From a bacterium (GTDB lineage Bacteria > Chlamydiota > Chlamydiia > Chlamydiales > SM23-39), in assembly GCA_021780355.1 (NCBI GenBank), contig JAJXYX010000031.1, forward strand, positions 51,493 through 90,402: a DNA stretch of 38,910 bases, given 5' to 3'. The notes under the pieces are model-generated. The model made no database searches. It was not told the DNA's origin and was given only the letters and a program-made list of their open reading frames with translations. Below, one piece after another: positions 3,901 through 38,757 of the stretch (its first letter is position 1; every line of letters starts with the position of its first letter). A program made the position numbers and the translations under genes.

Positions 3901-6900
3901 CTTGGCGAAGGGTCGAATAATGTCAACGTCACAGCTCCTGGAACCAACGGACAGCTTTTACTCGCCTCGACGACGGGAGATCCCAAATTTGCTACGATTA
4001 GCTCGACTGGAAATACCGTAACGTTTTCGTTCGGTCCTAATTCCTTAAATCTTGAGGCCTTGCCTAGCATTCCTATTCCTCTGCCTTTGTCTCTTGGAGG
4101 CACTGGCCGTACGGTGATGACGACGTTTGGCGTGCTGATTGGCGAAGGATCCAATGGTCTCAACGTCACAGCGCCCGGTACAAATGGTCAAGTGCTCATC
4201 GCGTCTTCGACAGGAGATCCAAAATTTGCCACGATTACTTCAACGGGGGGCACTCTCACCTTTACGGTTGGGGTCAACTCGTTGAACATGGATATCAACC
4301 TGTATAACAATACCTTTTTGAATCCGCTTCAAGTGGGCAATGGTGGTACTGGACGTACGCTGCTGACGACGTTTGGCGTTTTGCTTGGCGAAGGATCGAA
4401 TAATATCAATGTGACGGCGCCAGGCACGAATGGGCAAATTCTTTTAGCTTCGACGACTGGGGATCCAAAATTTGCGATCCTCACTTCGACCGGAGGAACG
4501 GTCACTTTTATGGTCGGGCCTAATTCGCTCAATATTGAAGTGAATATTTTCACCAATACGTTTTTCAATCCTTTGCAAGTGGCCAACGGAGGTACGGGAA
4601 GAACGGTGCTGACGACCTATGGAGTGCTGCTTGGCGAAGGGTCTAATAACGTGAATGTAACCGCGGCGGGAACGAGCGGCCAGGTGTTGATTGCGTCTTC
4701 GACAGGAGATCCTAAATTTTCGACAATCACCTCGACGGGAGGAACTCTTGCTTTAAGTGTCGGCTTCAACTCGCTGAATATCGATGTGAACATCGCTGGC
4801 AGTACGTTTTTCAATCCTTTGCAGGTGGGCAACGGCGGTACGGGAAGAACTGTGTTGACGACCTTTGGCGTTTTGCTTGGCGAGGGGTCGAACGGCGTCA
4901 ACGTAACGGCGGCGGGAACAAATGGGCAAGTATTGATTGGCTCGACGACAGGAGATCCCAAATTTGCCTCGATCACCTCGACGGGAGGAACTCTTGCTTT
5001 AACCGCCGGCTTTAACTCGCTGAATATCGATGTGAACATCGATGGCAGTACGTTTTTCAATCCTTTGCAGGTAGGCAACGGCGGTACAGGGAGAACTTTG
5101 CTGACAACCTATGGCGTGCTGATCGGCGAGGGGTCGAACGGCGTCAATGTCACAGCGGCGGGAACGAATGGGCAAGTACTCATCGGTTCAACGACAGGCG
5201 ATCCTAGTTTTTCAACGATTACTTCGACAGGCGGCACTCTGACGTTTACGTTCGGTTCCAACTCGCTCAATATCGATGTCAATTTTACGGGCAGTACTTT
5301 CTTTAATCCCTTGCAAGTCAGCAACGGGGGGACTGGCAATACGGTCTTGACGACGTTTGGTGTACTCATCGGCGAAGGATCGAATAATGTAAATGTGACG
5401 GCGGCTGGAACGAATGGACAGATATTGATCGCCTCGACGACAGGAGATCCTAGTTTTTCGACGATCTCTTCGACTGGCGGCTCGCTCCTCTTTACATCAG
5501 GGCCTAACTCGCTCAATATCGACGTGAATCTAGCTGGCAACACATTTTTCAATCCGCTTCTCGTGGGCAATGGCGGCACTGGCTGTACGATATTGACTAC
5601 GTTCGGGGTGCTTTTGGGCGAAGGTTCGAACAATATCAACGTGACGGCAGCTGGAACCGATGGGCAAGTCTTGATGGGTTCTTCGACAGGAGATCCTCAG
5701 TTCAGTACGATCACATCTTCTTTGGGCTCCTTAGCTTTTACGGCAGGTCATGGCAGTTTAAATATCGATATCAATGGGGCTTTGAACCCTGAATTCGGGG
5801 GAACTAATCGGACGATTCTTACAGCTTTTGGCATTCTTTTGGGAGAAGGATCTAATGGTGTGAATGTCACAGCGGCGGGTACGAATGGCCAGGTGCTCAT
5901 CGCCTCGACAACTGGGGATCCTCAATTTGCGACGATTTCTTCTACGGGAGGAACGATTATTTTTTCTTCTGGCCCGAATTCGCTGAACCTCGATGTCAAC
6001 ATTGCCGCCAGCACATTCTTTAATCCTCTCCAAGTGGGCAATGGCGGGACGGGGCGCACGCTCTTGACAGCCTACGGCGTACTCATCGGCGAAGGTTCGA
6101 AGAACATCAATGTCACGGCGGCTGGCACGAATGGCCAGGTGCTTGTGGCTTCGACAACGGGTGATCCCAAATTTGCTACGATCACCTCGACGGGCAATAC
6201 GATGGTTTTCACCGCGGGATTCAACTCGCTCAATATCGATGTGAACCTTGCCGCCAGTACGTTTTTTAATCCTGTCCAAGTGGGCAATGGAGGTACGGGA
6301 CAAACGCTTTTGACGACATATGGCGTGCTCATCGGCGAAGGATCGAATAGCGTGCATGTCACAGCGGCGGGTACGAATGGCCAGGTGCTCATCGCCTCGA
6401 CAACTGGGGATCCTCAATTTGCGACGATTTCTTCTACGGGAGGAACGGTCCTTTTGGCTTTTGGTCCGAATTCGCTCAATATCGACGTGAATCTAACCGG
6501 AAGCAGCTTTTTTAATCCTTTGCAAGTCGGCAACGGAGGCACTGGCAATACGATTTTGACCACCTTTGGCGTACTGGTGGGCGAAGGCTCTAATAGCATT
6601 CGTGCGACCACGGCCGGTACCAATGGTCAGGTGCTGCTCGCAGCGACAAATGCAAATCCTGCCTTTGGAACGATCACCTCTTCGGGCAATACCGTGACTT
6701 TTTCTTTCGGGCCCAATTCGCTGAACATAGAATCTATCGATATTGATTTTGCTTTTGTGAATCTCGGCGGAACGGGACGTACAGTTTTGACCACTTTTGG
6801 TGTTCTCCTTGGCGAAGGATCGAACAATGTGAACGTGACAGCGGCAGGAACGAACGGTCAAGTCTTGCTCGCAGCGACGGGAGCCGATCCGAAATTTTCA

Positions 6901-14443: not shown

Positions 14444-14519
14444 ATATGGATTCTTGGTTTTATTTATGAATGTTTTGTGATATCTGTTTTTTTAATATTG
14501 TTTTGTCTTAAGGGTGTTT

Positions 14520-17500
14520 GTGCCTAATTTTAATAATTCCTGGAACTACGTTTATATTTTAAATCAAAACGGTTTGCTGCTGATTGGGGATTCTAGTTCG
14601 AATCCACAAGCTGCATTTTTGACTTCAACGGGAGCTACCCTCACTTATTCTTTGAGTCCTGGGGCGATCGACATGGAGATTAATGGTTCGGGGGGATTTT
14701 TTGGCCCTCTCCAAGTTCTTTATGGCGGCATAGGAAGGACATTTTTAACGACTTTTGGCGTCCTTTTAGGTGAAGGTTCCAATCGAGTTCATGTAACGGC
14801 TGCAGGGACCCATGGCCAGCTGCTCATTGCATCGACAACAGGCGATCCCATTTTTGCGACGCTGACATCCAGCCGAGGCTCTTTACTGATTACTGCCGGC
14901 CCCAATTCGCTCAATATTGAGGTTTCTTCATCTAATTTCACATTTCCTACGTTTTGGTCTGTTCCTATCGGCGGCACAGGGCGTACGGCGCTCACAGCTT
15001 ATGGCGTCCTCTTAGGGGAAGGGAGCAATAGCGTGCATGTCACAGCTCCTGGAACCAATGGCCAGCTTTTTTTAGGAGCGACAGCGGCGGACCCTGCTTT
15101 TCAATCAATCTCTTCGACGGGAGGCACTCTCGTTTTTACGAGAGGAAATAACACTTTAAATATCGATCTGAATGTTTCTAACATTGCGCTTTTCAACCCC
15201 TTGCAAGTCATTTATGGCGGTACGGGACGTACGATTTTGACTACTAATGGCGTGCTCCTTGGCGAAGGATCGAACCGTGTTCATGTAACGCCTTTCGGAA
15301 CGGATGGCCAGGTGCTTTTGGGTTCCTCGACTGGAGACCCTATCTTCAACACGATCGTCTCTTCTTTAGGTGCGCTCGTTTGGTCGGCAGGCCCTAATAG
15401 TTTAGGTGTAGATCTGAACATTCCTATTCCTATTCAATGGGGCGGTACGAGCCAAACGACCCTTACGACCTTTGGAGTTCTCATTGGCGAAGGTTCAAAT
15501 TCTCTTGATGTCACAGCCCCTGGAACCGATGGCCAAGTGCTTCTTGCTGCAACGGGCTCGGATCCTGCTTTTGCAACGATTACTTCGACAGGGGCTACCG
15601 TATTGATCACGCCAGGTCCTAACTCGCTGAACCTAGAGGCAGATTTTTATGGCACAACCTATTTTAATCCTTTGCTAGTAGGCAATGGAGGAACAGGACA
15701 ACAAGTTCTCTCTCCATCTGGCGTTTTACTCGGTGAAGGTTCTAACTCGATCAATGTCACAGCTCAGGGAACAGACGGTCAATTGTTGATCGGCTCGTCC
15801 ACGGGAGATCCTGCCTTTTCGACAGTGACTTCCTTTTTAGGAACATTGAGTTTTGCTTTTAGCCCCGGCAGTTTAGCGATAGATGTGAATGGTCCTTTAA
15901 TCCTTCCTTTCGGAGGCACTGCCGAGACTGTGCTGACGAGATTTGGCGTTTTACTCGGCGAAGGTTCAAATGGCGTTCAAGCGACAGCTTCGGGAACTAG
16001 CGGCCAGCTTCTGATCGCGTCTTCGACAGGAGATCCTCTTTTTGCCTCGATCACATCTTTAGCGAATACTTTAACGTTTACGTTCGGTCCCCATTCGCTC
16101 AATATCGAGGTGAATCTTTCGGAAACCACCTTGTGGAATCCTCTTCCTGTCAACAAGGGAGGTTTGGGGCAAACGGTCTTGACTGTATATGGCGTTTTGC
16201 TTGGAGAAGGATCGAGCCAGATCCACGTCGCCGCCGCTGGGACGGATGGTCAGCTCTTTTTGGGTTCGTCGACAGGAGATCCTCAATTTAATACAGTCAC
16301 ATCTTCGTTAGGAGCGTTAGCATTTTCTGCGGGTCACGGCAGTTTAAATGCAGATCTTAGAGTTCCTGTGCTTACGAGGTTCGGCGGATCTGGCGCCACG
16401 TTATTCACAACCTATGGCGTCCTCCTCGGCGAAGGGTCGAATGGCGTCCATGTAACGGCTCCAGGAACGAATGGTCAAATGCTCATCGGTTCGACGACAG
16501 GCGATCCGAGTTTTTCCTCTTTAACCTCTGTGAACCGTACCATCACGTTTACTTTTGGAGTTAACTCTCTCAATGTGGAAGCGAATGTGTATGGCCATAC
16601 GTTTTTTAATCCTTTGCAGGTGAGTTTTGGCGGTACGGGAGAAACTCTTTTAACCCTCTACGGTGTCTTGCTAGGGTCTGGATCTAAAGGAGTCAATGTC
16701 ACGGCCTTTGGTACAGACGGTCAGCTTTTTATCGGTTCCTCTACAGGCTCTCCTCAATTTAATACGTTGACATCTTCTTTATCGACGATTTTGTTGGCTC
16801 CTGGCCACAGCAGTTTAAATCTCGATCTCAATGGGGTTTTACCTATCAATTGGGGCGGAACCGCCCGGACTTTGTTGACAGCTTTTGGGGTGCTTTTTGG
16901 GGAAGGTTCTAGTAGTGTGAATGCTGCGGCTCCGGGGACAAGTGGGCAAACGCTCATCGCTTCGACAGGCAGCGATCCAAAATGGATGAATATCACCTCA
17001 ACGGGCGGGACCTTGACGTTTACCTATGGAGTAGGATCGCTGAATATGGAGGCGATTTTTACGCCGAGCACGTTTTTTAATCCTTTGCTTGTCGGCAATG
17101 GAGGAACTGGTCTTACGCTTCTTACTCTCTATGGCGTCCTTTTAGGCGAGGGATCGAATAATATTGGTCAGACGGCTGCTGGTACAAATGGCCAGGTGCT
17201 GATGGCTGCGACAGGGGCTAATCCAAAATTTTCGACGATATCTTCTAGCAAACAAACGCTAGTTTTTATGCCAGGGCCCAATTTTTTGAATATGGATGTG
17301 GTGAGCACTCCGACATCGTTTCAAACGAATAGCGGTACCGCCTCGCCTCTAGGAGGTTTGCTGAATCTATTTAGCAGCTCGCCGCTTTCAACGGCGGGCT
17401 CAGCCTCTACACTCACGATCCAGCTGGGCGTAGCTCCTGCGGCCAATGGCGGCACAGGATTGACTCTTCTCACAAGATATGGAGTGCTCATTGGGGAGGG

Positions 17501-20500
17501 ATCTAATGCTCTGCATGTCACAGCGGCGGGGACAAATGGTCAAGCGCTGATCGCGTCTTCGACAGGAGATCCTAAGTTCATCACCATTACATCGGTAGGC
17601 CAAACGCTGAGTTTCACGTGGGGGGCTAATTCTTTAAACATTGAAACCTCGACAACTTTCCCTCTCTCTGTGAGCACAGGCAGTACCGGCCGGACCGTTT
17701 TTACTACGTTTGGCGTTCTCATTGGCGAGGGGAGCAATAGCATCAACGTGACGGCCGCTGGAACGAATGGCCAGTTACTCGTCGCCTCGACGACAGGGGA
17801 TCCTGCCTTTGCTACGATCACCTCTTCCGGCGGTACACTGACCTTTGTGCTTGGCGTCAATTCCTTAAGGATTACAGATCTTCCTTTTTCGAGTTTGGGA
17901 TTTTTTAATCCTTTGCAAGCCAGTTTCGGCGGCACAGGACGAACCCTCCTTACTAGGTTTGGCGTGCTCATCGGCGAAGGGTCGAATGCAGTCGATGTCA
18001 CAGCGCCTGGAACCCATGGCCAGATGCTCATTGCGTCTACGACCGGTGATCCTCAATTTGCTACCATTACATCTATAGGGGGGACCATTACCTTTACGAC
18101 AGGTCCCAATGCCCTAGCTATGAATGTGAATTTCGGCACTGCGATATTTAATCCTTTGCAAGTGGGAAGCGGCGGTACAGGGAAAACGGTGTTGACCGTT
18201 TTTGGCGTGCTGATCGGCGAGGGGTCCAATAATCTCAATGTCACCGCTCGAGGAACGCATGGTCAAACGTTGATAGCCTCCACAACGGGAGACCCGATAT
18301 TTGCCACGATCACATCGACAGGAAATACGATTACTTTTAGATTTGGCCCCAACTCTTTAAATATCGATGTGGTCAATTTATTTACTGGCACATATTTTAA
18401 TCCTTTGCAAGTCGTTAACGGGGGAACGGGGCGAACTCTTCTCACGACCTTTGGTGTGCTGATCGGAAAAGGTTCCAATAATATCAATGTCGCCGCTCGA
18501 GGAACTCATGGTCAAACCCTCCTTGCATCTACGACTGGCGATCCCAAATTCGCTAGCATTACATCGACCGGAAACACTCTCACTTTTAGATTTGGCCCCA
18601 ATTCTTTAAATGTCAATGTGATCAATTTATTTACCGGTACTTACTTTAATCCTCTCAGCGTGAGCAATGGCGGAACGAGGAGAACTCTTCTCACAACGTT
18701 TGGCGTTCTCCTTGGAGAAGGCTCGAATGCAGTCAACGTCACGGCGAGAGGGACACATGGCCAAGTGCTGATTGCTTCGACAACCGGAGATCCTAAATTT
18801 TCTACGATCACGTCTACGGGAGGTACTCTTACCTTTAGATTCGGCCCGAATTCTTTGAACATCGATGCAACAGCCCTGTTTAATAAAACTTTTTTCAATC
18901 CGTTGCAAGTGAATACGGGGGGGGCAGGACGAACCTTGCTGACAACATATGGCGTGCTCCTTGGAGAAGGCTCGAATCAAGTCAATGTCACGGCGAAAGG
19001 GACGCACGGCCAAGTGCTGATTGCCTCGACAACCGGAGATCCTAAATTTTCTACGATTACGTCTACGGGAGGCACTCTTACTTTTACATTCGGCCCCAAT
19101 TCGCTCAATATCACTACAAATATTTATAATCATACGTTTTTTAATCCTTTAAGGGTTGTCACGGGAGGAACTGGCCGCACGGTTCTCACGGCTTTTGGAG
19201 TGTTATTGGGAGAGGGGTCCAATCAAATTCGGGTGACAGCCGCGGGGACGAATGGCCAATTGTTGATCGGCTCATCAACGGGCGATCCGAAATTCAATAC
19301 CATCACATCTTCTTTAGCTACCTTGACCTTTACTATTTCTCCAGGCGGTTCAGGAATCAATATCGATGTGAATGGCGCTCTTCGCGTGGCTTTTGGGGGA
19401 ACGGGGCAGACCATCCTTACAACCTTTGGCGTGCTGATCGGCGAGGGATCGAGAAATGTGAATGTAACCGCCGCGGGCACGCATGGTCAGTTGCTGATTG
19501 CGGCAACAGGCGCAGATCCTCAGTTTTCAACTCTTACGTACACGGGAGTTACGTTAACCTTTCAATTCGGTCCTAATTCTTTAAACATCGATGTGATCAA
19601 CTTATTTAATGGGACATATTTTAACCCATTGCAAGTCGTCAATGGAGGCACAGGGCGAACGATTTTTACAGCCCGAAGAGTCCTTCTTGGCGAAGGATCT
19701 AATGCGCTCAATACTACGCTTGCGGCAACTCACGGTCAAGTGCTGATCGGGTCTACGACCGGCGATCCAACATTTACTACGATCACCTCGACGGGCAATA
19801 CGCTGACATTTAAATTCGGTCCGAATTCTCTAGATATCGAGACGACGATTTTTGCGAGCACATTTTTTAAACCCTTGCTAGTGGGCAATGGAGGAACAGG
19901 CCGAACCTTGCTCACAACCTTTGGCGTTCTTTTGGGTGAAGGATCCAATAATATCAATGTCACAGCTCGAGGAACCCGCGGCCAAGTGCTGATCGCGTCT
20001 ACGACTGGCGATCCTAAATTTTCCACCATCACTTCGACCGGCGGTACGTTGACTTTTGTGTTTGGCCCTAACGCCTTGAATGTCGATTGGACGCTCACGA
20101 ACTATTCGTTCTTCAAGCCTTTGCAAGTCAGTTATGGAGGCACGGGACGGACGATTTTGACGACCTTTGGCGTGCTGATCGGCGAAGGATCGAGCAATAT
20201 CAATGTTACAGCCGCGGGGACAAATGGCCAAGTGCTGATTGCTTCAACGACCGGCGATCCGAAGTTTGTCAACCTCACCTCTGTCGGGGGCACATTTACC
20301 TTCACATTTGGCGCCAATACGTTGAATATTGAAAGAGTTGAACTTGAGCTATACTCGGTAGATGAGGGGGGAACTAACCGCACTGTTTTGACAACCTTTG
20401 GCGTGCTGCTGGGCGAAGGATCAAACAGTGTCAACGTAACGGCGCCAGGAACGAACGGTCAACTTCTGATTGCCTCCACGACGGGAGATCCTGTATTTAA

Positions 20501-22067
20501 AACGATCACATCGACTGGAAATACGATTACCTTTTCTTTTGGCCCTAATTCTATCATTCTTAGTTCCAATGTTTTTACCAGCACGTTTTTTAATCCTTTG
20601 CTTGTCGGCAATGGAGGTACAGGACTAACCCTTTTGACAACGTTTGGTGTGCTGATTGGCGAAGGATCGAATAATCTTCATGTGACAGCAGCCGGAACAA
20701 ACGGCCAAGTGTTGCTGGCAGGAACGGGCGTCGATCCCAGATGGGGAACAATCACTTCTTCTGGAGGAACTTTAACCTTTGCTTTTGGAGCGCGCTCATT
20801 AAATATTGATGCGGTTCGAACCACGCTTCTTCCTATTCTCCGTGGAGGGACCAACCGTACCCTGCTGACAGCTTATGGCGTGCTCTTAGGAGAAGGCTCG
20901 AATGCAATCAATGTGACGGCGCCAGGAACTGATGGGCAGGTACTTATTGGCTCTTCAACCGGCGATCCGAAATTTAGCACGATCACCTCCTCTCAAGCGA
21001 CTTTATCCTTCACCTATGGCCATCATAGCCTAAATGTTGATCTCAATGGAATTCTGAACATCCAATGGGGCGGCACGAATCGGACGGTTCTGACTACATA
21101 CGGTGTTTTGCTAGGAGAAGGATCGAATAGTATTCAAGTAACAGCTCCCGGAACTAGCGGCCAACTATTGATTGCAGCCACAGGCGCTAATCCTGCCTTT
21201 GCGACGATCACCACTTCACTTTCTGCTCAAGGCAACGGGCTGAGTTTTACCTTTGGCCCAAACTCCTTGAATATGGATGTTTTCATTTCAGCTGCTAAAG
21301 TTAATGCTGGCGGCACAGGTAGGACTTTATTAACCACTTATGGTGTTTTAATAGGCGAAGGATCTAATCCTATCAACGCCACTGCGGCTGGGACAAACGG
21401 CCAGCTGCTCATCGGGGGCACAGCCGGCGATCCTGTTTTTGCCACTGTTACCTCGACAGGAAGTTCGATAGCCTTTACGCCTGGCGCCAATTCTCTGGAT
21501 ATTGCTGTGAATTTTTCAGGCGCTGCATTTTTTAACCCATTGATTATCAGTAATGGAGGGACAGGGGGTACTCTTCTGACGAGCTATGGCGTGCTGCTGG
21601 GAGAAGGGTCGAATCCTATCAACGTCACTGCAGCGGGCACAAACGGCCAATTGCTTTTGAGTGCAACGGGAGCCGATTCAAAGTTTGCGACGCTGACTTC
21701 GACAGGAGGCTCGTTTGTTTTTGCTTTTGGCCCGAATGGATTAAATATTGATACTTTCACTGGAGCCGCTAGTTATACGATCCTTAATATAAGCGCCGGA
21801 ACGACAGCAATTACAGCTAACTATGCATATTATTCGATTGATTCGAGCGGTGGTACCGTGACCTTGAATTTCCCTAATCCTCTTTCTTCGAGTAAATTTT
21901 GGACGATCAAAGATCGTACGGGTTATTCTTCTGTGTATCCTATTATTCTGACAACCGTTTTAGGAACGGTGACATTTGATGGAGAAACGGCTTTTAATTT
22001 AAATGTTCCTTTCGGTTCTTTGAATGTTTCTTATGATACTCTTACTTCGCGCTATGAGTTGTTCTAA
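14520..22067 (+). CDS. Giant tandem-repeat, tail-fibre-like protein 2 (2515 aa, 29 repeats)
   Basis: GTG at 14520 is preferred over the GTG at 14514. AAGGG at 14510-14514 then has a normal spacing, and the N-terminus (VPNFNNSWNYVYILNQNG) aligns with giant protein 1. The architecture copies protein 1: a cap at residues 1-68, 29 repeats, and a C-terminal domain from about residue 2414 ('FWTIKDRTGYSS', 'TVTFDGETAFNL', final 'YELF'). B-type units again occupy positions 3, 5, 7, 9, 19 and 26. The inserted segment in repeat 11 begins at residue 926 in both proteins. Differences include a block of repeats (about 14-18 and 20-22) with GTHGQ and basic loops (ARGTHGQ), and small expansions in repeats 19 and 27. 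There is no signal peptide or catalytic motif. It is probably a structural fibre or adhesin. It stands alone, with 107 bases upstream and 159 bases downstream free of genes. Confidence 0.9.
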   Translation: MPNFNNSWNYVYILNQNGLLLIGDSSSNPQAAFLTSTGATLTYSLSPGAIDMEINGSGGFFGPLQVLYGGIGRTFLTTFGVLLGEGSNRVHVTAAGTHGQLLIASTTGDPIFATLTSSRGSLLITAGPNSLNIEVSSSNFTFPTFWSVPIGGTGRTALTAYGVLLGEGSNSVHVTAPGTNGQLFLGATAADPAFQSISSTGGTLVFTRGNNTLNIDLNVSNIALFNPLQVIYGGTGRTILTTNGVLLGEGSNRVHVTPFGTDGQVLLGSSTGDPIFNTIVSSLGALVWSAGPNSLGVDLNIPIPIQWGGTSQTTLTTFGVLIGEGSNSLDVTAPGTDGQVLLAATGSDPAFATITSTGATVLITPGPNSLNLEADFYGTTYFNPLLVGNGGTGQQVLSPSGVLLGEGSNSINVTAQGTDGQLLIGSSTGDPAFSTVTSFLGTLSFAFSPGSLAIDVNGPLILPFGGTAETVLTRFGVLLGEGSNGVQATASGTSGQLLIASSTGDPLFASITSLANTLTFTFGPHSLNIEVNLSETTLWNPLPVNKGGLGQTVLTVYGVLLGEGSSQIHVAAAGTDGQLFLGSSTGDPQFNTVTSSLGALAFSAGHGSLNADLRVPVLTRFGGSGATLFTTYGVLLGEGSNGVHVTAPGTNGQMLIGSTTGDPSFSSLTSVNRTITFTFGVNSLNVEANVYGHTFFNPLQVSFGGTGETLLTLYGVLLGSGSKGVNVTAFGTDGQLFIGSSTGSPQFNTLTSSLSTILLAPGHSSLNLDLNGVLPINWGGTARTLLTAFGVLFGEGSSSVNAAAPGTSGQTLIASTGSDPKWMNITSTGGTLTFTYGVGSLNMEAIFTPSTFFNPLLVGNGGTGLTLLTLYGVLLGEGSNNIGQTAAGTNGQVLMAATGANPKFSTISSSKQTLVFMPGPNFLNMDVVSTPTSFQTNSGTASPLGGLLNLFSSSPLSTAGSASTLTIQLGVAPAANGGTGLTLLTRYGVLIGEGSNALHVTAAGTNGQALIASSTGDPKFITITSVGQTLSFTWGANSLNIETSTTFPLSVSTGSTGRTVFTTFGVLIGEGSNSINVTAAGTNGQLLVASTTGDPAFATITSSGGTLTFVLGVNSLRITDLPFSSLGFFNPLQASFGGTGRTLLTRFGVLIGEGSNAVDVTAPGTHGQMLIASTTGDPQFATITSIGGTITFTTGPNALAMNVNFGTAIFNPLQVGSGGTGKTVLTVFGVLIGEGSNNLNVTARGTHGQTLIASTTGDPIFATITSTGNTITFRFGPNSLNIDVVNLFTGTYFNPLQVVNGGTGRTLLTTFGVLIGKGSNNINVAARGTHGQTLLASTTGDPKFASITSTGNTLTFRFGPNSLNVNVINLFTGTYFNPLSVSNGGTRRTLLTTFGVLLGEGSNAVNVTARGTHGQVLIASTTGDPKFSTITSTGGTLTFRFGPNSLNIDATALFNKTFFNPLQVNTGGAGRTLLTTYGVLLGEGSNQVNVTAKGTHGQVLIASTTGDPKFSTITSTGGTLTFTFGPNSLNITTNIYNHTFFNPLRVVTGGTGRTVLTAFGVLLGEGSNQIRVTAAGTNGQLLIGSSTGDPKFNTITSSLATLTFTISPGGSGINIDVNGALRVAFGGTGQTILTTFGVLIGEGSRNVNVTAAGTHGQLLIAATGADPQFSTLTYTGVTLTFQFGPNSLNIDVINLFNGTYFNPLQVVNGGTGRTIFTARRVLLGEGSNALNTTLAATHGQVLIGSTTGDPTFTTITSTGNTLTFKFGPNSLDIETTIFASTFFKPLLVGNGGTGRTLLTTFGVLLGEGSNNINVTARGTRGQVLIASTTGDPKFSTITSTGGTLTFVFGPNALNVDWTLTNYSFFKPLQVSYGGTGRTILTTFGVLIGEGSSNINVTAAGTNGQVLIASTTGDPKFVNLTSVGGTFTFTFGANTLNIERVELELYSVDEGGTNRTVLTTFGVLLGEGSNSVNVTAPGTNGQLLIASTTGDPVFKTITSTGNTITFSFGPNSIILSSNVFTSTFFNPLLVGNGGTGLTLLTTFGVLIGEGSNNLHVTAAGTNGQVLLAGTGVDPRWGTITSSGGTLTFAFGARSLNIDAVRTTLLPILRGGTNRTLLTAYGVLLGEGSNAINVTAPGTDGQVLIGSSTGDPKFSTITSSQATLSFTYGHHSLNVDLNGILNIQWGGTNRTVLTTYGVLLGEGSNSIQVTAPGTSGQLLIAATGANPAFATITTSLSAQGNGLSFTFGPNSLNMDVFISAAKVNAGGTGRTLLTTYGVLIGEGSNPINATAAGTNGQLLIGGTAGDPVFATVTSTGSSIAFTPGANSLDIAVNFSGAAFFNPLIISNGGTGGTLLTSYGVLLGEGSNPINVTAAGTNGQLLLSATGADSKFATLTSTGGSFVFAFGPNGLNIDTFTGAASYTILNISAGTTAITANYAYYSIDSSGGTVTLNFPNPLSSSKFWTIKDRTGYSSVYPIILTTVLGTVTFDGETAFNLNVPFGSLNVSYDTLTSRYELF
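14724..21758 (+). repeat. In-frame array of 29 repeats in giant protein 2
   Basis: The units have the same design as in giant protein 1 (mostly 246 bp, with 225-bp B-type units at the same ordinal positions), but nucleotide identity between neighbouring units is lower. A subgroup, units 15-18, shares 'FRFGPNSLN' or related endings and GTHGQ, showing local expansion after the array was formed. Confidence 0.85.
18917..18924 (+). repeat. G8 homopolymer inside giant gene 2
   Basis: Eight consecutive G residues encode the start of repeat 18 (residues 1466-1469), where the usual GGTG reads GGAG. A tract of this length inside a coding region can slip during replication. A one-base change would truncate the protein at about 58 percent of its length. 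Confidence 0.9.
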
Positions 22068-22182: not shown

Positions 22183-22226
22183 AAAATCTAAATTTTATTA
22201 TTCTGACATTTTTGGTGACGTTTTTT

Positions 22227-23891
22227 ATGTTAAATAATTCGTGGAATTATCGTTCTATTTTGAATCAAAATGGTCAAGTTTTAGTTGGTTCTTCTACCGG
22301 AAACCCTTTGGCTGCTTTTTTAACTTCTTCAAGTGGAACTCTTTCTTATTTATTTGGTCCAGGTTTTATTAATATCGATATAAATGGACCAATCTCTGTA
22401 GGTTTTGGCGGCACTGGTCGCACGATACTCACAACCTATGGCGTGCTCCTTGGAGAGGGCTCAAATAACGTCAATGTGACGGCAGCTGGCACTGACGGCC
22501 AAATTTTGATTGGCTCCTCCACCGGCGATCCGAATTTTAATACAATGACTTCCGTTTTAGGCACTCTGACTTTTAGTGCGGGCCATGGCAGTCTGAATAT
22601 AGATCTAAACGCCCCAGTGACTGTTGGATTTGGCGGCACCGGTCTCACGATACTCACGACCTATGGCGTGCTCCTTGGAGAGGGATCAAATAACGTCAAT
22701 GTAACAGCAGCTGGAACAGACGGTCAGTTGTTGATTGCTTCGACAACCGGCGATCCCAGATTTGCAACCGTTACATCCTCTGGTAATACGGTAGCGTTTA
22801 CCTTTGGGCCAAACTCTCTCAATATCGAAATGAATGCTCCTGGTTTTACCTTTGTCAACCCATGGCCAGTTATTAACGGCGGCACAGGCCGCACAGCGCT
22901 TACAGCTTTTGGAGTCCTTCTTGGAGAAGGATCAAATAACGTCAATGTGACGGCAGCTGGAACTGACGGCCAAATTTTGATTGGCTCCTCCACCGGCGAT
23001 CCGAATTTTAATACAATGACTTCCGTTTTAGGTACTCTGACTTTTAGTGCGGGCCACGGCAGTCTGAATATAGATCTAAACGCCCCAGTGACTGTTGGAT
23101 TTGGCGGCACCGGTCTCACGATACTCACGACCTATGGCGTACTCCTCGGCGAAGGATCGAATAACATCAATGTAACAGAAGCTGGAACAGACGGTCAGTT
23201 GTTCATTGCTTCGACAACCGGCGATCCCAGATTTGCAACCGTTACATCCTCTGGTAATACGGTAGCGTTTACCTTTGGGCCAAACTCTCTCAATATCGAA
23301 ATGAATGCTCCTGGTTTTACCTTTGTCAACCCATGGCCAGTTATTAACGGTGGCACAGGCCGCACCGCGCTTACAGCTTTTGGAGTCCTTCTTGGAGAGG
23401 GCTCAAATAACGTCAATGTGACGGCAGCTGGAACTGATGGCCAAGTCTTGATTGGCTCCTCTACCGGCGATCCTGCTTTTTCGACTATTACATCGAGTGG
23501 AGGAACGATTACCTTTGCATTCGGTCCTAACTCGGTGAATCTTGAAGTGACAAACCCTTCTGGAATGAGTTGGTCTACGATTTCAACTAGCACTACTTTA
23601 CAAGGCGGTAATGGATATATTTGCGTAGGAGGTGGGGCTTTAACTTTTGCTCTTCCCCCAGCACCTGTTATTGGAACAGGTGTGACTTTAGCTTTATCAG
23701 GCGCTTCAAGCTGGTCGATTGTTCTATCTGGAACGCAAGTGATTCGATTTGGTTATTTAACGACAACCACAGGGACCGGTGGCATCTTGCAAAGCTCTCT
23801 TCAAGGAGATGTAGTTTTTCTTGTCTGTACCGATTCTGTATTATCACAATGGATGGTTATATATAATATTGGAACTTTAAAGTTTTATTGA
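22227..23891 (+). CDS. Short tail-fibre-like repeat protein (554 aa, 5 repeats)
   Basis: ATG at 22227 is preferred over the upstream TTG: GGTGA at 22214-22218 is well placed, and the N-terminus MLNNSWNYRSILNQNG then aligns with the family cap. The cap covers residues 1-60. Five repeats follow in the order B, A, B, A and a final partial unit, with starts at residues 61, 136, 218, 293 and 375. A-type units here end 'NAPGFTFVNPWPVIN' rather than FFNPLQV. The C-terminal domain from about residue 440 ('GVTLALSGASSWSIVLSG', 'IRFG', 'QWMVIYNIGTLKFY') resembles the end of the truncated protein at 2-772, not the ends of the giants. There is no signal peptide. The gene appears to be transcribed alone, between 159-base and 412-base intergenic stretches. 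Confidence 0.88.
   Translation: MLNNSWNYRSILNQNGQVLVGSSTGNPLAAFLTSSSGTLSYLFGPGFINIDINGPISVGFGGTGRTILTTYGVLLGEGSNNVNVTAAGTDGQILIGSSTGDPNFNTMTSVLGTLTFSAGHGSLNIDLNAPVTVGFGGTGLTILTTYGVLLGEGSNNVNVTAAGTDGQLLIASTTGDPRFATVTSSGNTVAFTFGPNSLNIEMNAPGFTFVNPWPVINGGTGRTALTAFGVLLGEGSNNVNVTAAGTDGQILIGSSTGDPNFNTMTSVLGTLTFSAGHGSLNIDLNAPVTVGFGGTGLTILTTYGVLLGEGSNNINVTEAGTDGQLFIASTTGDPRFATVTSSGNTVAFTFGPNSLNIEMNAPGFTFVNPWPVINGGTGRTALTAFGVLLGEGSNNVNVTAAGTDGQVLIGSSTGDPAFSTITSSGGTITFAFGPNSVNLEVTNPSGMSWSTISTSTTLQGGNGYICVGGGALTFALPPAPVIGTGVTLALSGASSWSIVLSGTQVIRFGYLTTTTGTGGILQSSLQGDVVFLVCTDSVLSQWMVIYNIGTLKFY
22407..23348 (+). repeat. Near-identical 471-bp tandem duplication
   Basis: Bases 22407-22877 and 22878-23348 are two copies of a B+A repeat pair. 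Long stretches are identical (for example around 22501 and 22972, exactly 471 bases apart), with only scattered differences such as a T/C in the GH codons and a cluster near the start of the A unit. This indicates a recent duplication or gene conversion. Confidence 0.9.
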
Positions 23892-24303
23892 ATAAGTTTT
23901 ACGTCGATAACATTCAATCTTTCCTTTGTAATAATTCAATTTTCAACTATTTTATCGTGTCCATATAATCTCAGAATGGTAAACGAAATAAAATATTTCA
24001 AAAATTAAACCTTCAAAAATGTGTAGCTCCTTTCAGTTAAATTACTATATATCCTAGATTTCTTGGGAGTTGCTCTTAGTCGTTTTTTGTTAATATCTTT
24101 TGTTATTGTGTTCATTTCTGTTTATTTAAATCTTTAGCCTTTATTTCTGTTTTGATATTTATGGTTTTTGGTGGTTTTTTTTATTTTTAAGGTTTTGTTT
24201 TTACTTTTGTTTCTGTGGTGTTGGTTTGATTTACGTTCTCTTGTTTAGTTGTATTTTTTTTAAGTTTTAGATAAACCTCACATTTTACTTGGTAGTACAT
24301 TTT
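23892..24303 (+). other. 412-bp AT-rich, T-skewed intergenic leader
   Basis: No open frame of note is present. The second half (about 24070-24260) is very rich in T and G on the plus strand and poor in A and C. A possible -10 (TATATAT near 24045-24055) is visible, without a convincing -35. No strong terminator hairpin follows the stop at 23891. The region probably holds the promoter of the 917-aa gene and a long T-rich untranslated leader. Confidence 0.5.
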
Positions 24304-27057
24304 ATGCTAAATAATACGTGGAATTATCGTTCTGTTTTAAATCAAAGTGGATTACTTTTGATTGGTTCGTCTTCTTCTAATCCTCAAGCTGGATTTTTAA
24401 CTTCATCAAACGGGACGCTTTCCTATTTATTTGGATCAGGTTCGATCAATATTGATTTGAACATTCCTGTGACTGTGGGATTTGGAGGAACAGGCCGAAC
24501 GATATTGACTGTATATGGAGTAGTTCTTGGCGAGGGCTCGAACTCCGTCAACGTAACAGCTCCAGGAACAAACGGTCAGTTGTTAGTTGCTTCGACAACT
24601 GGCGATCCAAAATTTTCAACCGTTACATCCTCTGGCAACACGGTAACGTTTACCTTTGGACCAAACTCTCTCAATATTGAAGTAAGCGCCCCTGGCTTTA
24701 CTTTCGCCAACCCATGGCCTGTTATCAATGGTGGCACAGGTCGCACAGCACTTACAGCTTTTGGTGTTTTGCTAGGCGAAGGATCGAATAACGTCAATGT
24801 GACGGCAGCTGGAACTGACGGCCAAGTTTTGATTGGCTCTTCTACCGGAGATCCGAAATTTAATACGGTGACCTCTGCTTTAGGCACATTAACCTTTAGC
24901 GTAGGCCACGGAACGTTAAGCGTAGATCTGAATGTTCCTGTCACTGTTGGATTTGGAGGCACAGGCCGCACGATTCTTACGACCTATGGCGTTCTTTTGG
25001 GCGAAGGGTCGAATAACATCAACGTAACGGATCCTGGAACAAATGGTCAGTTGTTAATTGCTTCGACGACTGGCGATCCAAAATTTGTAACCGTTACATC
25101 TTCTGGCAACACGGTAACATTTACCTTTGGACCAAACTCCCTCAATATCGAAGTGAGCGCCCCTGGCTTTACCTTTGCCAACCCATGGCCAGTCAGCAAT
25201 GGCGGCACAGGCCGCACAGCACTTACAGCTTTTGGCGTTTTGCTTGGCGAGGGATCGAATAACGTCAATGTGACGGCAGCGGGAACTGATGGCCAAGTTT
25301 TGATTGGCTCTTCTACCGGCGATCCGAAATTTAATACGGTGACCTCTGCTTTAGGCACACTAACCTTTAGCGTAGGTCATGGCAGTTTAAACATAGATCT
25401 GAACATTCCCGTCACTGTTGGATTTGGAGGTACAGGCCGCACAATTCTTACGACCTATGGCGTTCTTCTGGGCGAGGGATCGAACAACATCAATGTGACA
25501 GCTCCAGGAACGAATGGCCAAGTCTTAATCGCCTCGACGACCGGCGATCCGAAATTTACGACCATCACATCTTCTAGTAACACGGTAACATTTACCTTTG
25601 GACCAAACTCCCTCAATATCGAAGTAAGCGCTCCTGGCTTTACCTTTGCTAACCCATGGCCAGTCAGCAATGGCGGCACCGGGCGCACAGCGCTTACAGC
25701 TTTTGGCGTTTTGCTAGGCGAAGGATCGAATAACGTCAATGTGACGGCAGCGGGAACTGACGGCCAAGTTCTGATTGGCTCTTCTACCGGCGATCCGAAA
25801 TTTAATACGGTGACCTCTGCTTTGGGTACATTAACCTTTAGCGTAGGTCATGGCAGTTTAAACGTAGATCTGAATGTTCCTGTCACTGTTGGATTTGGAG
25901 GTACAGGCCGCACGATTCTTACGACCTACGGGGTACTTCTTGGCGAGGGATCGAACAACATCAACGTCACAGCTCCTGGAACGAATGGCCAAGTCTTGAT
26001 CGCCTCGACGACCGGTGATCCCAAATTTACGACCATCACATCCTCTGGTAACACGGTAACATTTACCTTTGGACCAAACTCCCTCAATATCGAAGTGAGC
26101 GCCCCTGGCTTTACCTTTGCCAACCCATGGCCGGTCATCAATGGTGGCACAGGTCGTACAGCGCTTACAGCCTTTGGCGTTTTGCTAGGCGAAGGATCGA
26201 ATAACGTCAATGTGACGGCTCCTGGAACAAACGGTCAGTTGTTAATTGCTTCGACGACCGGCGACCCGAAATTTGTAACCGTTACATCTTCTAGTAACAC
26301 GGTAACATTTACCTTTGGCCCCAACTCTCTCAATATCGAAGTAAGCGCCCCTGGCTTTACCTTTGCTAACCCATGGCCAGTCAGCAATGGCGGCACCGGG
26401 CGCACAGCGCTTACAGCTTTTGGCGTTTTGCTAGGCGAAGGATCGAATAACGTCAACGTAACGGCAGCTGGAACTGATGGCCAAGTGCTGATCGGCTCTT
26501 CGACCGGCGATCCGAAATTTAATACGATCACCTCTTCATTGGGTTCTTTAACGTTTGCATTTGGCCACGGAAGTTTGAATATCGATTTGAATGCTCCTGT
26601 TTCTATTGCCAATGGCGGTACGAATGCGACAACATTTGGATCCACGATCAGTAGTGTTATCTATTTTAATGGAACCTCTTTGGTACCGTTAAGTCCAGGA
26701 AGCTCAGGTCAGGTGCTACAATCTCAAGGAACGGGTGTAGCTCCTGTTTTTGGCGCTGCTACGCCCCTTTTACCGATTACCTTTGTCACGAGTGGAACTT
26801 CTTATGCTGTATCATCTACAGATTATTTTCTTTCTGTTAGTTCTGATATCGCTCGAACGATTACTCTGGCCGCCACGACGACGACAGGTCGTGTTGTTGT
26901 TGTAAAAGATCGGACGGGGAATGCTCAAAGTAATAATATTACTGTTCAAGCTACAAGTGGAACTGTAACTATTGATGGTGGTCCGACGTATAAAATTAAT
27001 GTAAATTATGCGTCAATTCAGCTTTTATTTGACGGGACGGTATATCAAATATTCTAG
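24304..27057 (+). CDS. Tail-fibre-like repeat protein with homogeneous repeats (917 aa, 9 repeats)
   Basis: ATG at 24304 is preferred over the TTG at 24289, since it gives the family N-terminus MLNNTWNYRSVLNQSG and has GGTAG upstream. The cap is residues 1-60. Nine repeats start at residues 61, 143, 218, 300, 375, 457, 532, 614 and 696 in the order A, B, A, B, A, B, A, A, B. Repeat 8 is a hybrid with a B-like head and an A-like body. After a degenerate GGTN segment (771 to about 835) comes the C-terminal domain ('VVVKDRTGNAQSNNITV', 'GTVTIDGGPTYKI', final 'YQIF'), the same class as in the two giants. No signal peptide or enzyme motif is present. The stop codon overlaps the AGGAG of the next gene, so it heads an operon with three jelly-roll-like paralogs, a 59-aa protein and a lipoprotein. 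Confidence 0.88.
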   Translation: MLNNTWNYRSVLNQSGLLLIGSSSSNPQAGFLTSSNGTLSYLFGSGSINIDLNIPVTVGFGGTGRTILTVYGVVLGEGSNSVNVTAPGTNGQLLVASTTGDPKFSTVTSSGNTVTFTFGPNSLNIEVSAPGFTFANPWPVINGGTGRTALTAFGVLLGEGSNNVNVTAAGTDGQVLIGSSTGDPKFNTVTSALGTLTFSVGHGTLSVDLNVPVTVGFGGTGRTILTTYGVLLGEGSNNINVTDPGTNGQLLIASTTGDPKFVTVTSSGNTVTFTFGPNSLNIEVSAPGFTFANPWPVSNGGTGRTALTAFGVLLGEGSNNVNVTAAGTDGQVLIGSSTGDPKFNTVTSALGTLTFSVGHGSLNIDLNIPVTVGFGGTGRTILTTYGVLLGEGSNNINVTAPGTNGQVLIASTTGDPKFTTITSSSNTVTFTFGPNSLNIEVSAPGFTFANPWPVSNGGTGRTALTAFGVLLGEGSNNVNVTAAGTDGQVLIGSSTGDPKFNTVTSALGTLTFSVGHGSLNVDLNVPVTVGFGGTGRTILTTYGVLLGEGSNNINVTAPGTNGQVLIASTTGDPKFTTITSSGNTVTFTFGPNSLNIEVSAPGFTFANPWPVINGGTGRTALTAFGVLLGEGSNNVNVTAPGTNGQLLIASTTGDPKFVTVTSSSNTVTFTFGPNSLNIEVSAPGFTFANPWPVSNGGTGRTALTAFGVLLGEGSNNVNVTAAGTDGQVLIGSSTGDPKFNTITSSLGSLTFAFGHGSLNIDLNAPVSIANGGTNATTFGSTISSVIYFNGTSLVPLSPGSSGQVLQSQGTGVAPVFGAATPLLPITFVTSGTSYAVSSTDYFLSVSSDIARTITLAATTTTGRVVVVKDRTGNAQSNNITVQATSGTVTIDGGPTYKINVNYASIQLLFDGTVYQIF
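24730..26142 (+). repeat. Three near-identical 471-bp B+A tandem repeats
   Basis: Copies start at 24730, 25201 and 25672. A fourth copy begins at 26143 but changes to A-type sequence after about 75 bases. Sequence is highly conserved at the nucleotide level, including third codon positions, so these copies are recent or are kept alike by gene conversion. Confidence 0.9.
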
Positions 27058-36555: not shown

Positions 36556-37419
36556 ATGGGAACTTTTCACTATGTAAATGGAGCCTTTGTCCCGGAAGAG
36601 AAGGCCTATGTAAGCGCTCTTGATTTAAGCGTACTGAGAGGCTATGGCGTCTTTGACTATGTGCAAGTTTATCAAGGTAGAGCCTTTCACTTGCAGGATC
36701 ATTTAGAGCGTTTAAAATGGTCTGCTGAACAAGTCGAACTCTCTTTACCTATGGGTCTTGCAGAATTGGATCAATTAGTTCAACAGCTGCTCGCCAAAAA
36801 TCCATCCATCGATGCCGGTGTCCGCTTGATTGTCACAGGAGGTCCTAGTGGTCAAGATCAACTCCTTCCTGATGCTGGATCTCATCTAATTTTATTGTTT
36901 CATCCTTATACTCCCCCTCCTGAAAAATATTACACTCATGGAATGAAAGCTGTCACGACCAACCTTCTGAGAATTATTCCTTCCGTTAAAACAACGAATT
37001 ATATGCCCGCTATTTTTGCGATGAATAAAGCAAAACAGCGTGGATTCGATGACGCGATTTATCTAAGTGACCGACAAGAGCTTTTAGAAGGAACCATTTC
37101 TAATGTTTTTTTCTTTAAAGACGGAAAAATCATCACTTCTGATTCCAATAGCATAGTCAAAGGAGTGACTCGGTCGATTCTCCTTCGGCTCGCCGAGCCC
37201 CATTTCCCTATAGAATATCGTTCTTTGCCGCTTTCGGAAGTCTCTTCTTGCCAAGAGGCCTTTTTATGCTCAAGTCGCAAAGAAGTGGCGCCCTTGGTGC
37301 AAATCGATGACATTGTGATCGGGACAGGTAAACCGGGGCCCTCTTCGGCTAAGCTGCGCTCCTTATTTCAAGACTATGTAGCAAACTACTTTGCCAAAAC
37401 CCTTCAGCCGGTTTGTTAA
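36556..37419 (+). CDS. Class IV (fold-type IV) PLP-dependent aminotransferase
   Basis: The 287-aa product starts at ATG 36556 behind TGGGG. It shows the fold-type IV signature: 'VLRGYGVFDYVQVYQGR' (26-42), 'LQDHLERLKWSA' (46-57), the PLP lysine Lys145 in 'SVKTTNYM', 'DDAIYLSDRQELLEGTISNV' (165-184) with Glu178, and 'GVTRSILLRLA' for cofactor phosphate binding. Length fits the family. Members include branched-chain amino acid aminotransferase, D-amino acid aminotransferase and aminodeoxychorismate lyase. The substrate cannot be read safely from these motifs, and the single-gene context gives no help. A 150-base leader with a strong inverted repeat precedes it, so expression may be controlled at the RNA level. 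Confidence 0.88.
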   Translation: MGTFHYVNGAFVPEEKAYVSALDLSVLRGYGVFDYVQVYQGRAFHLQDHLERLKWSAEQVELSLPMGLAELDQLVQQLLAKNPSIDAGVRLIVTGGPSGQDQLLPDAGSHLILLFHPYTPPPEKYYTHGMKAVTTNLLRIIPSVKTTNYMPAIFAMNKAKQRGFDDAIYLSDRQELLEGTISNVFFFKDGKIITSDSNSIVKGVTRSILLRLAEPHFPIEYRSLPLSEVSSCQEAFLCSSRKEVAPLVQIDDIVIGTGKPGPSSAKLRSLFQDYVANYFAKTLQPVC

Positions 37420-37486
37420 AAAAAGTAAATCATTTTTTGCCCTAACCCTCTCTTTTTTAGAGCTTTATCTAACCTTCTGCACATTT

Positions 37487-37539
37487 TGAGTGATTTTACT
37501 CAGTATATTGAGTAAAATCACTCATAACAGTGAGTGAGT
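37487..37539 (+). promoter_or_regulatory. Operator-like array of TGAGT/ACTCA half-sites at 11-bp spacing
   Basis: Half-sites lie at 37487 (TGAGT), 37498 (ACTCA), 37509 (TGAGT), 37520 (ACTCA) and 37531 (TGAGT), alternating in orientation at exactly 11-bp steps; an extra TGAGT overlaps at 37535. The first four form a perfect 16-bp inverted repeat with a 6-base centre. The array ends 6 bases before the ATG of the ATPase gene and overlaps a possible GTG start at 37534. It resembles a cooperative repressor site on one face of the helix. As RNA it would form a stable hairpin near the ribosome binding site. Confidence 0.65.
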
Positions 37540-37545
37540 AGATTG

Positions 37546-38757
37546 ATGAAAAAAAGACCCGTCTTTCGCGAGATCGTTGAACGTTTACAACAACCTCGAA
37601 AATTTATTCAGGTTCTTTTAGGGCCTAGGCAGGTGGGCAAAACAACATTAGCCCTTCAAGCGGCAGAAGAAATCCATCAACCAAGCCATTATGCCTCAGC
37701 GGATTTAGCCTCACTGCAAGATTTATCCTGGCTGGTTCAGCAATGGGAAATAGCAAGACTCAAAGTCGACTCCACCCATGGAGCGTTATTTGTCATCGAT
37801 GAGATACAAAAAATCCCTAATTGGTCTGAAGTGGTGAAAGCTTTATGGGATGAAGACACAAGAAAAAAAATCAATCTTTCGGTGATGATCTTAGGCTCTT
37901 CTCCTTGGTTAGTGCAAAAAAGTCTTTTTGAAAGTTTGGCTGGTCGCTTTGAAATCATCCCGATCACTCACTGGTCTTATCCAGAAATGAAAGAGATTTT
38001 TGGTTTGTCTTTAGATGAATACATTTACTTTGGAGGCTACCCGGGATCAGCTTCGCTCATTGACAAAGAAGATCCTACTCGCTGGATGAATTATATTAGT
38101 GATTCTCTCATTGAAACAACGATATCGAGAGACATTTTATTGATGACCCAAGTGAATAAGCCTGTTTTACTTCGCAGATTGTTTCAATTGAGCTGCCAAT
38201 ATTCTGGACAAATTCTTTCCTATTCCAAAATGTTAGGGCCTTTACAAGATGCAGGCAATACGACAACATTAGCTCACTATCTAGATCTTCTATCGGGAGC
38301 AGGGTTATTATGCGGATTGCAAAAATTTGCAAATCAACCGGTTCGACAAAAAAATTCGAGTCCCAAATTAATGGTGTATAATACCGCTCTCATGAGCGCA
38401 CAAACAGGAAAAACATTTAAAGAGGCCAGATCCGATTCAGCTTATTGGGGACGGCTTGTCGAATCGGCAGTCGGCGCCCATCTTTTAAATCAGATCCGCT
38501 CCTCGCGGTCAGAGCTTTTTTATTGGAGGGAAAAAGATCAGGAAGTGGATTTTGTCGTTCACGATAAAAAACATCTCATTGCCCTAGAGGTAAAATCGGG
38601 ATCAGAATTTTTTAGACGCTCTGGCATGGATCTATTTTCGTCTGAATTTAAACCTCAAAAATGCTTGCTTATCGGAAGAGAGGGCGTTTCTTTAGAAGAA
38701 TTTCTACAAGCGTCGCTTTCCAAGTTGTTTTCTTTGTCTCGACTTTGCAACTTTTAA
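37546..38757 (+). CDS. AAA ATPase with DUF4143 (AAA_14 family), 403 aa
   Basis: ATG at 37546 is chosen; a GTG four codons upstream lies inside the half-site array. Residues 26-34 form a Walker A (GPRQVGKTT) and 81-90 a Walker B (LFVIDEIQKI). The middle has 'YPEMKEIFGLSLDEYIYFGG' and a winged-helix-like 'LARYL'-type region ('SYSKMLGPLQDAGNTTTLAHYL' in part). The C-terminal DUF4143 part has 'LVESAVGAHLLNQI', 'YWREKDQEVDFVV' and 'LIALEVKSGS', an E-VDFV...EVKS pattern like PD-(D/E)XK nuclease folds. The family is widespread in bacteria and archaea, and its role is unknown. There is no signal peptide or membrane segment. Nothing links it to the fibre genes. Confidence 0.88.
   Translation: MKKRPVFREIVERLQQPRKFIQVLLGPRQVGKTTLALQAAEEIHQPSHYASADLASLQDLSWLVQQWEIARLKVDSTHGALFVIDEIQKIPNWSEVVKALWDEDTRKKINLSVMILGSSPWLVQKSLFESLAGRFEIIPITHWSYPEMKEIFGLSLDEYIYFGGYPGSASLIDKEDPTRWMNYISDSLIETTISRDILLMTQVNKPVLLRRLFQLSCQYSGQILSYSKMLGPLQDAGNTTTLAHYLDLLSGAGLLCGLQKFANQPVRQKNSSPKLMVYNTALMSAQTGKTFKEARSDSAYWGRLVESAVGAHLLNQIRSSRSELFYWREKDQEVDFVVHDKKHLIALEVKSGSEFFRRSGMDLFSSEFKPQKCLLIGREGVSLEEFLQASLSKLFSLSRLCNF

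Follow-up and report, generated by a model that had tools for sequence, protein, structure and literature searches.

Array and ATPase gene in the window

Near the downstream end of the window, which is the whole analysed stretch of 38,910 nucleotides from a chlamydial contig (JAJXYX010000031.1), lies a gene encoding an ATPase with AAA_14 and DUF4143 domains, preceded by an array of short half-sites. The upstream neighbour of the array is an aminotransferase gene (36556-37419), and downstream of the ATPase gene the contig runs 153 bp more. Elsewhere the window contains four long open reading frames at 928-8463, 14514-22067, 22212-23891 and 24289-27057 (2511, 2517, 559 and 922 aa). They coincide with tandem repeats whose periods are about 246, 249 or 471 bp (units of about 82 aa), and we regard them as a repeat-protein cluster. 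The array consists of the following elements:

37487-37491, + strand: half-site 1, TGAGT (sequence; shuffle test)
37498-37502, - strand: half-site 2, ACTCA (sequence; shuffle test)
37509-37513, + strand: half-site 3, TGAGT (sequence; shuffle test)
37520-37524, - strand: half-site 4, ACTCA (sequence; shuffle test)
37531-37535, + strand: half-site 5, TGAGT (sequence; shuffle test)
37484-37527, no strand: near-perfect inverted repeat of 22+22 nt that holds half-sites 1-4 (91% complementary, no spacer)

An earlier note on this DNA had claimed five alternating TGAGT/ACTCA half-sites with an exact 11-bp period, and all of them lie where it had placed them (37487-37535). An extra TGAGT at 37535 is out of register with the array. 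The claim that this order is far from chance held as well: within the window, alternation at 11 bp persists for up to five half-sites, whereas the longest run in 200 Markov shuffles comprised one (195 shuffles) or two (5 shuffles). When any 5-mer and its reverse complement were allowed at periods of 8 to 14 bp, the array was still the maximum of the window (5), with at most 3 in 40 shuffles. A chance origin of the array is ruled out by these shuffles together with the control blocks from the loci of relatives described below.

The end of the array is separated from the ATG at 37546 by 10 bp, and the alignable N-terminus of the relatives starts at that ATG. The GTG at 37534, given as the start in the list of open reading frames, falls inside half-site 5. 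The following features were assigned to the gene and its product:

37546-38757, + strand: AAA_14-DUF4143 ATPase gene, 403 aa, PADLOC PDC-S01 (profile matches; start from the alignment)
37621-37647, + strand: Walker A region, residues 26-34, GPRQVGKTT (conserved in two alignments of relatives)
38161-38376, + strand: winged helix-turn-helix, residues 206-277 (AlphaFold2 model)
38260-38298, + strand: recognition helix, residues 239-251, TTTLAHYLDLLSG (AlphaFold2 model)
38512-38595, + strand: C-terminal PD-(D/E)XK-like motif, E333, D335, E348 and K350 (conservation; strands in the model)

Both Pfam matches are above their cut-offs (DUF4143 99.3 bits, AAA_14 80.4 bits). The residues G26, R28, G31, K32, D85 and E86 are invariant among 93 sequences and E333, D335, E348 and K350 are conserved in at least 90% of them, values which refer to motif conservation only. 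An AlphaFold2 model built from the 93 sequences reached a mean pLDDT of 93.7 and superseded a model from 11 sequences, in which the winged helix was poor. After the ATPase core it places helices at 206-218, 226-230 and 239-251, followed by the strands of a winged helix, for which sequence-specific DNA binding is predicted. The nearest solved structures in VIA-align are the archaeal ATPases 2qen (Z 17.6, rmsd 3.1, 261 residues aligned) and 2fna (Z 17.3, rmsd 3.4, 262 aligned), both of which we take to be members of PF01637, followed by CED-4 and p97 with Z values of about 15.7. Foldseek listed ORC and Orc1/Cdc6 chains first by E-value (2qby_A: E 4.1e-7, TM 0.33-0.36), with TM-scores of only 0.30-0.36. 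A sequence search of solved structures gave weak matches, mostly to general AAA+ proteins. Like 2qen and 2fna, the ATPase of the window is modelled as an AAA+ core followed by a winged helix, a likeness that is weak for Orc1/Cdc6 (2qby); unlike PF01637-type ATPases and Orc1/Cdc6, it carries in addition a C-terminal nuclease-like domain.

With PDC-S01 the protein shares an end-to-end PADLOC match (PDLC04791, E=4e-175, protein residues 1-395 on profile positions 1-394 of 395) as well as the Pfam pair AAA_14 and DUF4143. In the accessible text of the describing paper, PDC-S01 is an ATPase fused to a member of the PD-(D/E)XK superfamily and takes fourth place by frequency among the defences of all prokaryotes in one survey; its defence role is a prediction there, and the system is a candidate only (PMC12988326). 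In contrast to PDC-S01 as described in that text, the gene of the window has a promoter-embedded array, which is the new element.

Conservation of the array among relatives

The genomes of 84,980 species were searched with a profile made from an alignment of 11 close relatives (80 loci kept, 93 relatives). Together with the window and 14 loci from an earlier search of relatives this gave 95 protein-selected loci, from which we removed 9 duplicates, 6 loci whose best match lacked the N-terminus (L032, L034, L145, L151, L152 and L155) and one with less than 45% identity (L033). The resulting 79 genes encode proteins 48.6-70.1% identical to that of the window (tblastn). At least two half-sites in 11-bp alternation were present within 150 bp upstream of 68 of the 79 genes (the window's included) and at least three upstream of 58. 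Other spacings were virtually absent from the same genes (8-10 and 12-14 bp, 0/79; 15 bp, 1/79), and among random blocks of the same loci only 1 of 1365 contained an array (0 of 1557 in an earlier draw). In all 68 genes counted, the array lies on the side of the gene start. Absence of the array from close homologues, which the earlier note had named as evidence against its reading, is thus not what we found.

The 11 failing genes are L022, L131, L132, L135 and seven with altered half-sites (L096, L100, L113, L123, L154, L157 and L161). The middle half-site is changed in L131, L132 and L135. In L022 the array itself is normal, but another stretch, with two strong hairpins, lies between it and the ATPase gene (some 150 bp ahead of the start of the gene). 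In two further loci, L025 (identical to L099) and L029 (identical to L110), the last half-site shares bases with an in-frame ATG; translation there may start without a leader or may be masked by bound protein.

When upstream regions were compared pairwise among 69 genes, 1604 of 2346 gene pairs matched between -90 and 0 and 1 of 2346 between -260 and -170; this comparison and the consensus given below (71 genes) belong to an earlier set than the count of 79. Conservation is accordingly limited to the array and does not extend to the DNA further upstream. The far-upstream control applies to the subfamily of the window, and for other DUF4143 subfamilies it is less certain that the upstream region as a whole is not simply shared by descent.

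The array accompanies the ATPase gene in many bacterial phyla, and relatives of the gene are present on plasmids. Clustering by phylum prevails in the protein tree (21 changes for 18 groups, with a shuffled mean of 38.6 and a possible minimum of 17), with some interleaving (e.g. 3 changes for Chlamydiota and 5 for Verrucomicrobiota). Because of this pattern we consider the association of array and gene to be ancient and to have been maintained by vertical inheritance, by transfer or by the two together.

Within the window's own genome of 1.96 Mb, the three-site pattern occurs without mismatch at three places, all within this array. If up to two mismatches are allowed, one place is found beyond the array, and the reversed pattern yields five, so that only exact three-site matches are meaningful. 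For the single 16-bp palindrome, four other places in the genome match with 1 or 2 mismatches (none for the backwards control), and all four fall within open reading frames. The genome-wide search that the earlier note had suggested therefore ended with one array in 1.96 Mb, which means that no regulon is visible, and a regulon was rejected as an explanation.

In Chlamydiota, the phylum of the window, a 22-bp pattern with at most one mismatch was detected in 44 of 232 genomes. Of the array loci fetched from the phylum, 17 of 38 have no adjoining gene of the subfamily, with about 1.5-2 kb examined on each side and less at contig ends. The array of L053, which lies inside an open reading frame, is probably due to chance, and near that of L077 there is a DUF4143 gene of another subfamily (27% identity). 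Some arrays are accompanied by scraps of the gene: L052 keeps its first 10 codons, L061 a C-terminal piece, L087 a decayed N-terminus and L083 perhaps a scrap as well (weak match). The loci L082 and L085, from two related genomes, have both neighbours and the array in common, and the ATPase gene is present in L082 only. In L085 it is cleanly missing, and the array ends 7 bp before the ATG of the next gene, which it may now serve as promoter. Arrays situated between unrelated genes without a member of the window's subfamily were observed in L083 (2011-2054), L085 (1998-2041), L061, L063, L064, L065, L068, L070, L072 and L073.

Arrays standing alone, the pair L082/L085 and the plasmid-borne relatives could all be taken as signs of a mobile gene which homes to the array, or cuts at it, by means of its PD-(D/E)XK-like domain. 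Against such a recombination or nuclease target speak the position of the array at the gene start in the 68 genes counted and the consensus promoter that it carries. Furthermore, the scraps at L052 and L061 and the decayed N-terminus at L087 point to loss of the gene rather than to empty targets, and we consider this explanation very unlikely. Because of these scraps and the clean absence in L085 compared to L082, many of the gene-less arrays may be leftovers of gene loss.

Overlap with the consensus promoter and a proposed mode of action

The consensus of 50 arrays reads TTga.tTTactcA.tataTTGAGTAAAaTTACTCAatatatTGAGTAAatT. It is opened by TTGA, and a TAAAAT follows 17 bp after the hexamer starting with TTGA. 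This consensus places a promoter inside the array, with half-sites over the -35 and -10 elements and the region just past -10. The pattern TTG[AC]..TAnn[AT]T with a spacing of 16-18 was present in the last 100 bp upstream of 39 of the 79 genes compared to 33 of 1365 control blocks. The corresponding elements of the window are:

37490-37495, + strand: -35-like hexamer GTGATT, degenerate (TTGATT or TTGACT in many relatives; sequence versus relatives)
37513-37518, + strand: -10-like hexamer TAAAAT, spaced 17 bp from the -35-like hexamer (sequence; conserved in relatives)

The first base of this TAAAAT is the last base of half-site 3. In the window's own copy, a promoter was called neither by a consensus scanner nor by our own pattern.

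Half-sites that cover -35, -10 and the region just beyond usually block the polymerase. This layout in the consensus argues against an activator site at which binding of the ATPase would raise its own expression, an idea we hold to be most improbable, even if an activating ATPase bound at these sites would be indistinguishable at the level of sequence. Since the window has only a degenerate -35-like hexamer and yielded no promoter call, the preference for repression over activation rests on the layout in the relatives.

An action of the array as RNA, i.e. as a hairpin in the 5' leader governing translation or termination, was also considered. The transcribed strand of the array has a strong predicted hairpin (-29.5 kcal/mol, z -6.55), and the - strand carries a predicted terminator-like stem (37537-37518). 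Any palindrome folds, though, whatever its purpose, and a strict alternating 11-bp period is the signature of a DNA face rather than something an RNA needs. Moreover, much of the array would be untranscribed because the consensus array starts at -35 and spans -10. No Rfam family reached its gathering score in the window, so that a known RNA element was rejected, and we judge a function as RNA to be highly improbable.

The preferred reading is that the array constitutes a promoter-embedded operator, read by the winged helix of the ATPase itself for autorepression, to which we assign a probability of about three in four. As far as sequence evidence reaches, it is probably an operator recognised by the product of the gene that it precedes. 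In the mechanism we propose, one winged helix would grip each half-site. Because of the 11-bp spacing and the alternating orientation, the subunits would line up along the same DNA face and touch each other through the repeating dyad, and such contacts would make binding cooperative. The bound ATPase would cover the promoter and the gene start and thereby repress its own gene (negative autoregulation), until the nucleotide state or an invader signal lifts the repression. Binding, cooperativity, repression and its relief are steps that we infer. Among known systems, autoregulated type II toxin-antitoxin operons offer a likeness, in which one of the encoded proteins acts as repressor at the promoter/operator (PMC7730913, accessible text), as would be the case here. 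Unlike in those operons, ATPase, winged helix and nuclease-like domain are all contained in one gene.

Proposed recognition by the winged helix and subfamily-specific elements

We compared seven relatives with altered operators to 77 canonical genes over about 380 protein columns, the class 'altered' having been defined after the sequences were seen; one of the seven, the alphaproteobacterial L113, has TGAAC sites. Ranked by departure from the consensus, the top three columns were residues 239 (p 1.7e-5), 226 (3e-5) and 235 (2e-3), all of which lie in the modelled winged helix; residue 239 is the first of the recognition helix. By a second measure (residues absent or single among the canonical genes), residue 356, outside the winged helix, came first and 239 second. 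With a sister pair collapsed (6 versus 74, 381 columns), 239 ranked first, 226 second and 280, again outside the winged helix, third. The altered label requires five changes on the protein tree, at least four of them forced by well-supported branches, and L096 and L100 may share one. Among divergence-matched random sets, 2 of 300 reached the same best p value, and in 70 of 300 the top column was in the winged helix as well, so that position in this domain alone is weak evidence; it is the strength of the association, not its position, which random sets rarely reach.

There are exceptions. L123 combines altered half-sites (TGCGT/ACGCA) with an unchanged helix start NTTT. Of four plasmid copies looked at, that of Thermus oshimai (L248) combines a changed palindrome with the helix start NTVT, which also occurs in canonical genes, and that of Bacteroides finegoldii (L249) has partly changed half-sites with NTTT. 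A broken copy from B. finegoldii (L251) has other sites and the helix start NVTT as in L154, and the copy from Collinsella aerofaciens (L250) is canonical, its four half-sites being in register.

The genome of the window has 13 DUF4143 matches. Among the 11 of these genes with readable upstream regions (the window's included), no pair shares an upstream element (top pair score 12, cut-off 14), on which ground a common trans-acting regulator of all DUF4143 genes was rejected. For 115 DUF4143 genes from the relatives and the own genome, upstream elements were common to 198 of 455 between-genome pairs with at least 50% protein identity and to 9 of 5922 pairs below 50%; within one genome, 1 of 178 pairs shared an element. 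Sharing of elements correlated with protein identity (Mantel r 0.62, 0 of 2000 permutations), and since it follows protein identity and not the genome, one common trans-acting repressor is argued against. An upstream palindrome exceeded all 30 shuffles in 59 of the 115 genes and at least 27 in 78, with shuffling as the only control. In other genomes, several DUF4143 subfamilies keep elements of their own: GAAGTTGAACTTC-like elements pair with helices such as SSHTVKEWI and GACTATTTTGCA-6-TGCAAAATAGTC-like elements with SPNTVKKYI, as TGAGT arrays do with NTTTLAHYL. In the wider DUF4143 set, the AAA domain predicted the sharing of operators just as well as the winged helix did (AUC 0.928 for both, 42-75% identity).

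These data also bear on the array as an origin-like or iteron element where an Orc1/Cdc6-like ATPase starts replication. Replication initiators bind repeats, and the predicted fold resembles archaeal AAA+/winged-helix ATPases and, weakly, Orc1/Cdc6. The structure 2qby is titled as Cdc6/Orc1 initiators on origin DNA; the sites of Orc1 are origins, though, whereas the repeats of the window would belong to a promoter. With the array inside the core promoter in the consensus, and 13 DUF4143 matches in one genome without a common element among those with readable upstream regions, a role in replication appears extremely improbable.

Promoter arrays of half-sites are classic targets of small helix-turn-helix repressors. 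The earlier note had proposed cooperative binding of such a small repressor, or autoregulation. Cooperative binding and autoregulation fit well with an array of strict period which overlaps the consensus promoter, stays with the gene in many phyla, has no second copy in the genome and varies, with exceptions, with residues of the winged helix. The separate small repressor found no support: in a pairwise comparison of the loci (flanks of up to 2.5 kb), no other neighbouring gene family recurred widely. A repressor encoded elsewhere, binding the array and controlling the ATPase gene, would agree with the result that the wider family test does not single out the winged helix of the ATPase. The columns most tied to altered half-sites belong, however, to this very domain. 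Moreover, many separate subfamily-specific repressors would be needed, because the array tracks the ATPase gene across many phyla, is single in the genome and is unshared by the readable paralogues. We therefore regard a separate repressor as quite unlikely.

A different extension of self-recognition would make the array part of defence. The ATPase, with its Orc/STAND-like fold, would rest on its own promoter as an inactive DNA-bound oligomer, and a phage signal would change its nucleotide state, releasing the nuclease-bearing enzyme and derepressing the gene. We consider this possible but unlikely; if it were true, a genome with many DUF4143 paralogues would have a set of sensors insulated from one another, since the recognition helix of each would tie it to an operator code of its own. 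In Thermus thermophilus, TT_P0211 (AAA 14, DUF4143) was 6.6-fold upregulated in an Argonaute-bearing strain with a plasmid compared to that strain without it (PMC4406477, accessible text). The transcript of a family member is thus responsive to conditions, by whatever route.

Autoregulation through a palindromic operator is well known as a kind. In the literature found by the family names DUF4143 and PDC-S01, as far as its accessible text goes, no operator or regulation of these ATPases is described, which agrees with the earlier remark that such an array is rarely reported for this family; an operator in the form of a subfamily-specific half-site code is likewise undescribed there. PDC-S01 is abundant, yet a description of its mechanism or ligand was not found in the same literature. 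An 11-bp half-site code that stays fixed between proteins only about half identical, and differs in other DUF4143 subfamilies, is a candidate DNA ligand for the ATPase and points to the residues that should read it. It would also explain how many paralogues can exist in one cell without cross-talk. Members of the ATPase family can be found or classified by means of the array, through which the regulation of the family also becomes testable.

Two loci show further arrangements of such elements. In L072 (1501-1600), a locus lacking a neighbouring ATPase gene of the window's subfamily, a TGAGT palindrome is followed within about 100 bp by a GAAGTTCAACTTC element of another DUF4143 subfamily. In L164, 60 bp ahead of the gene, a larger palindrome (GGGTTAAAT...ATTTAACCC) encloses TGAGC/ACTCA half-sites, and the loop ahead of the recognition helix is lengthened.
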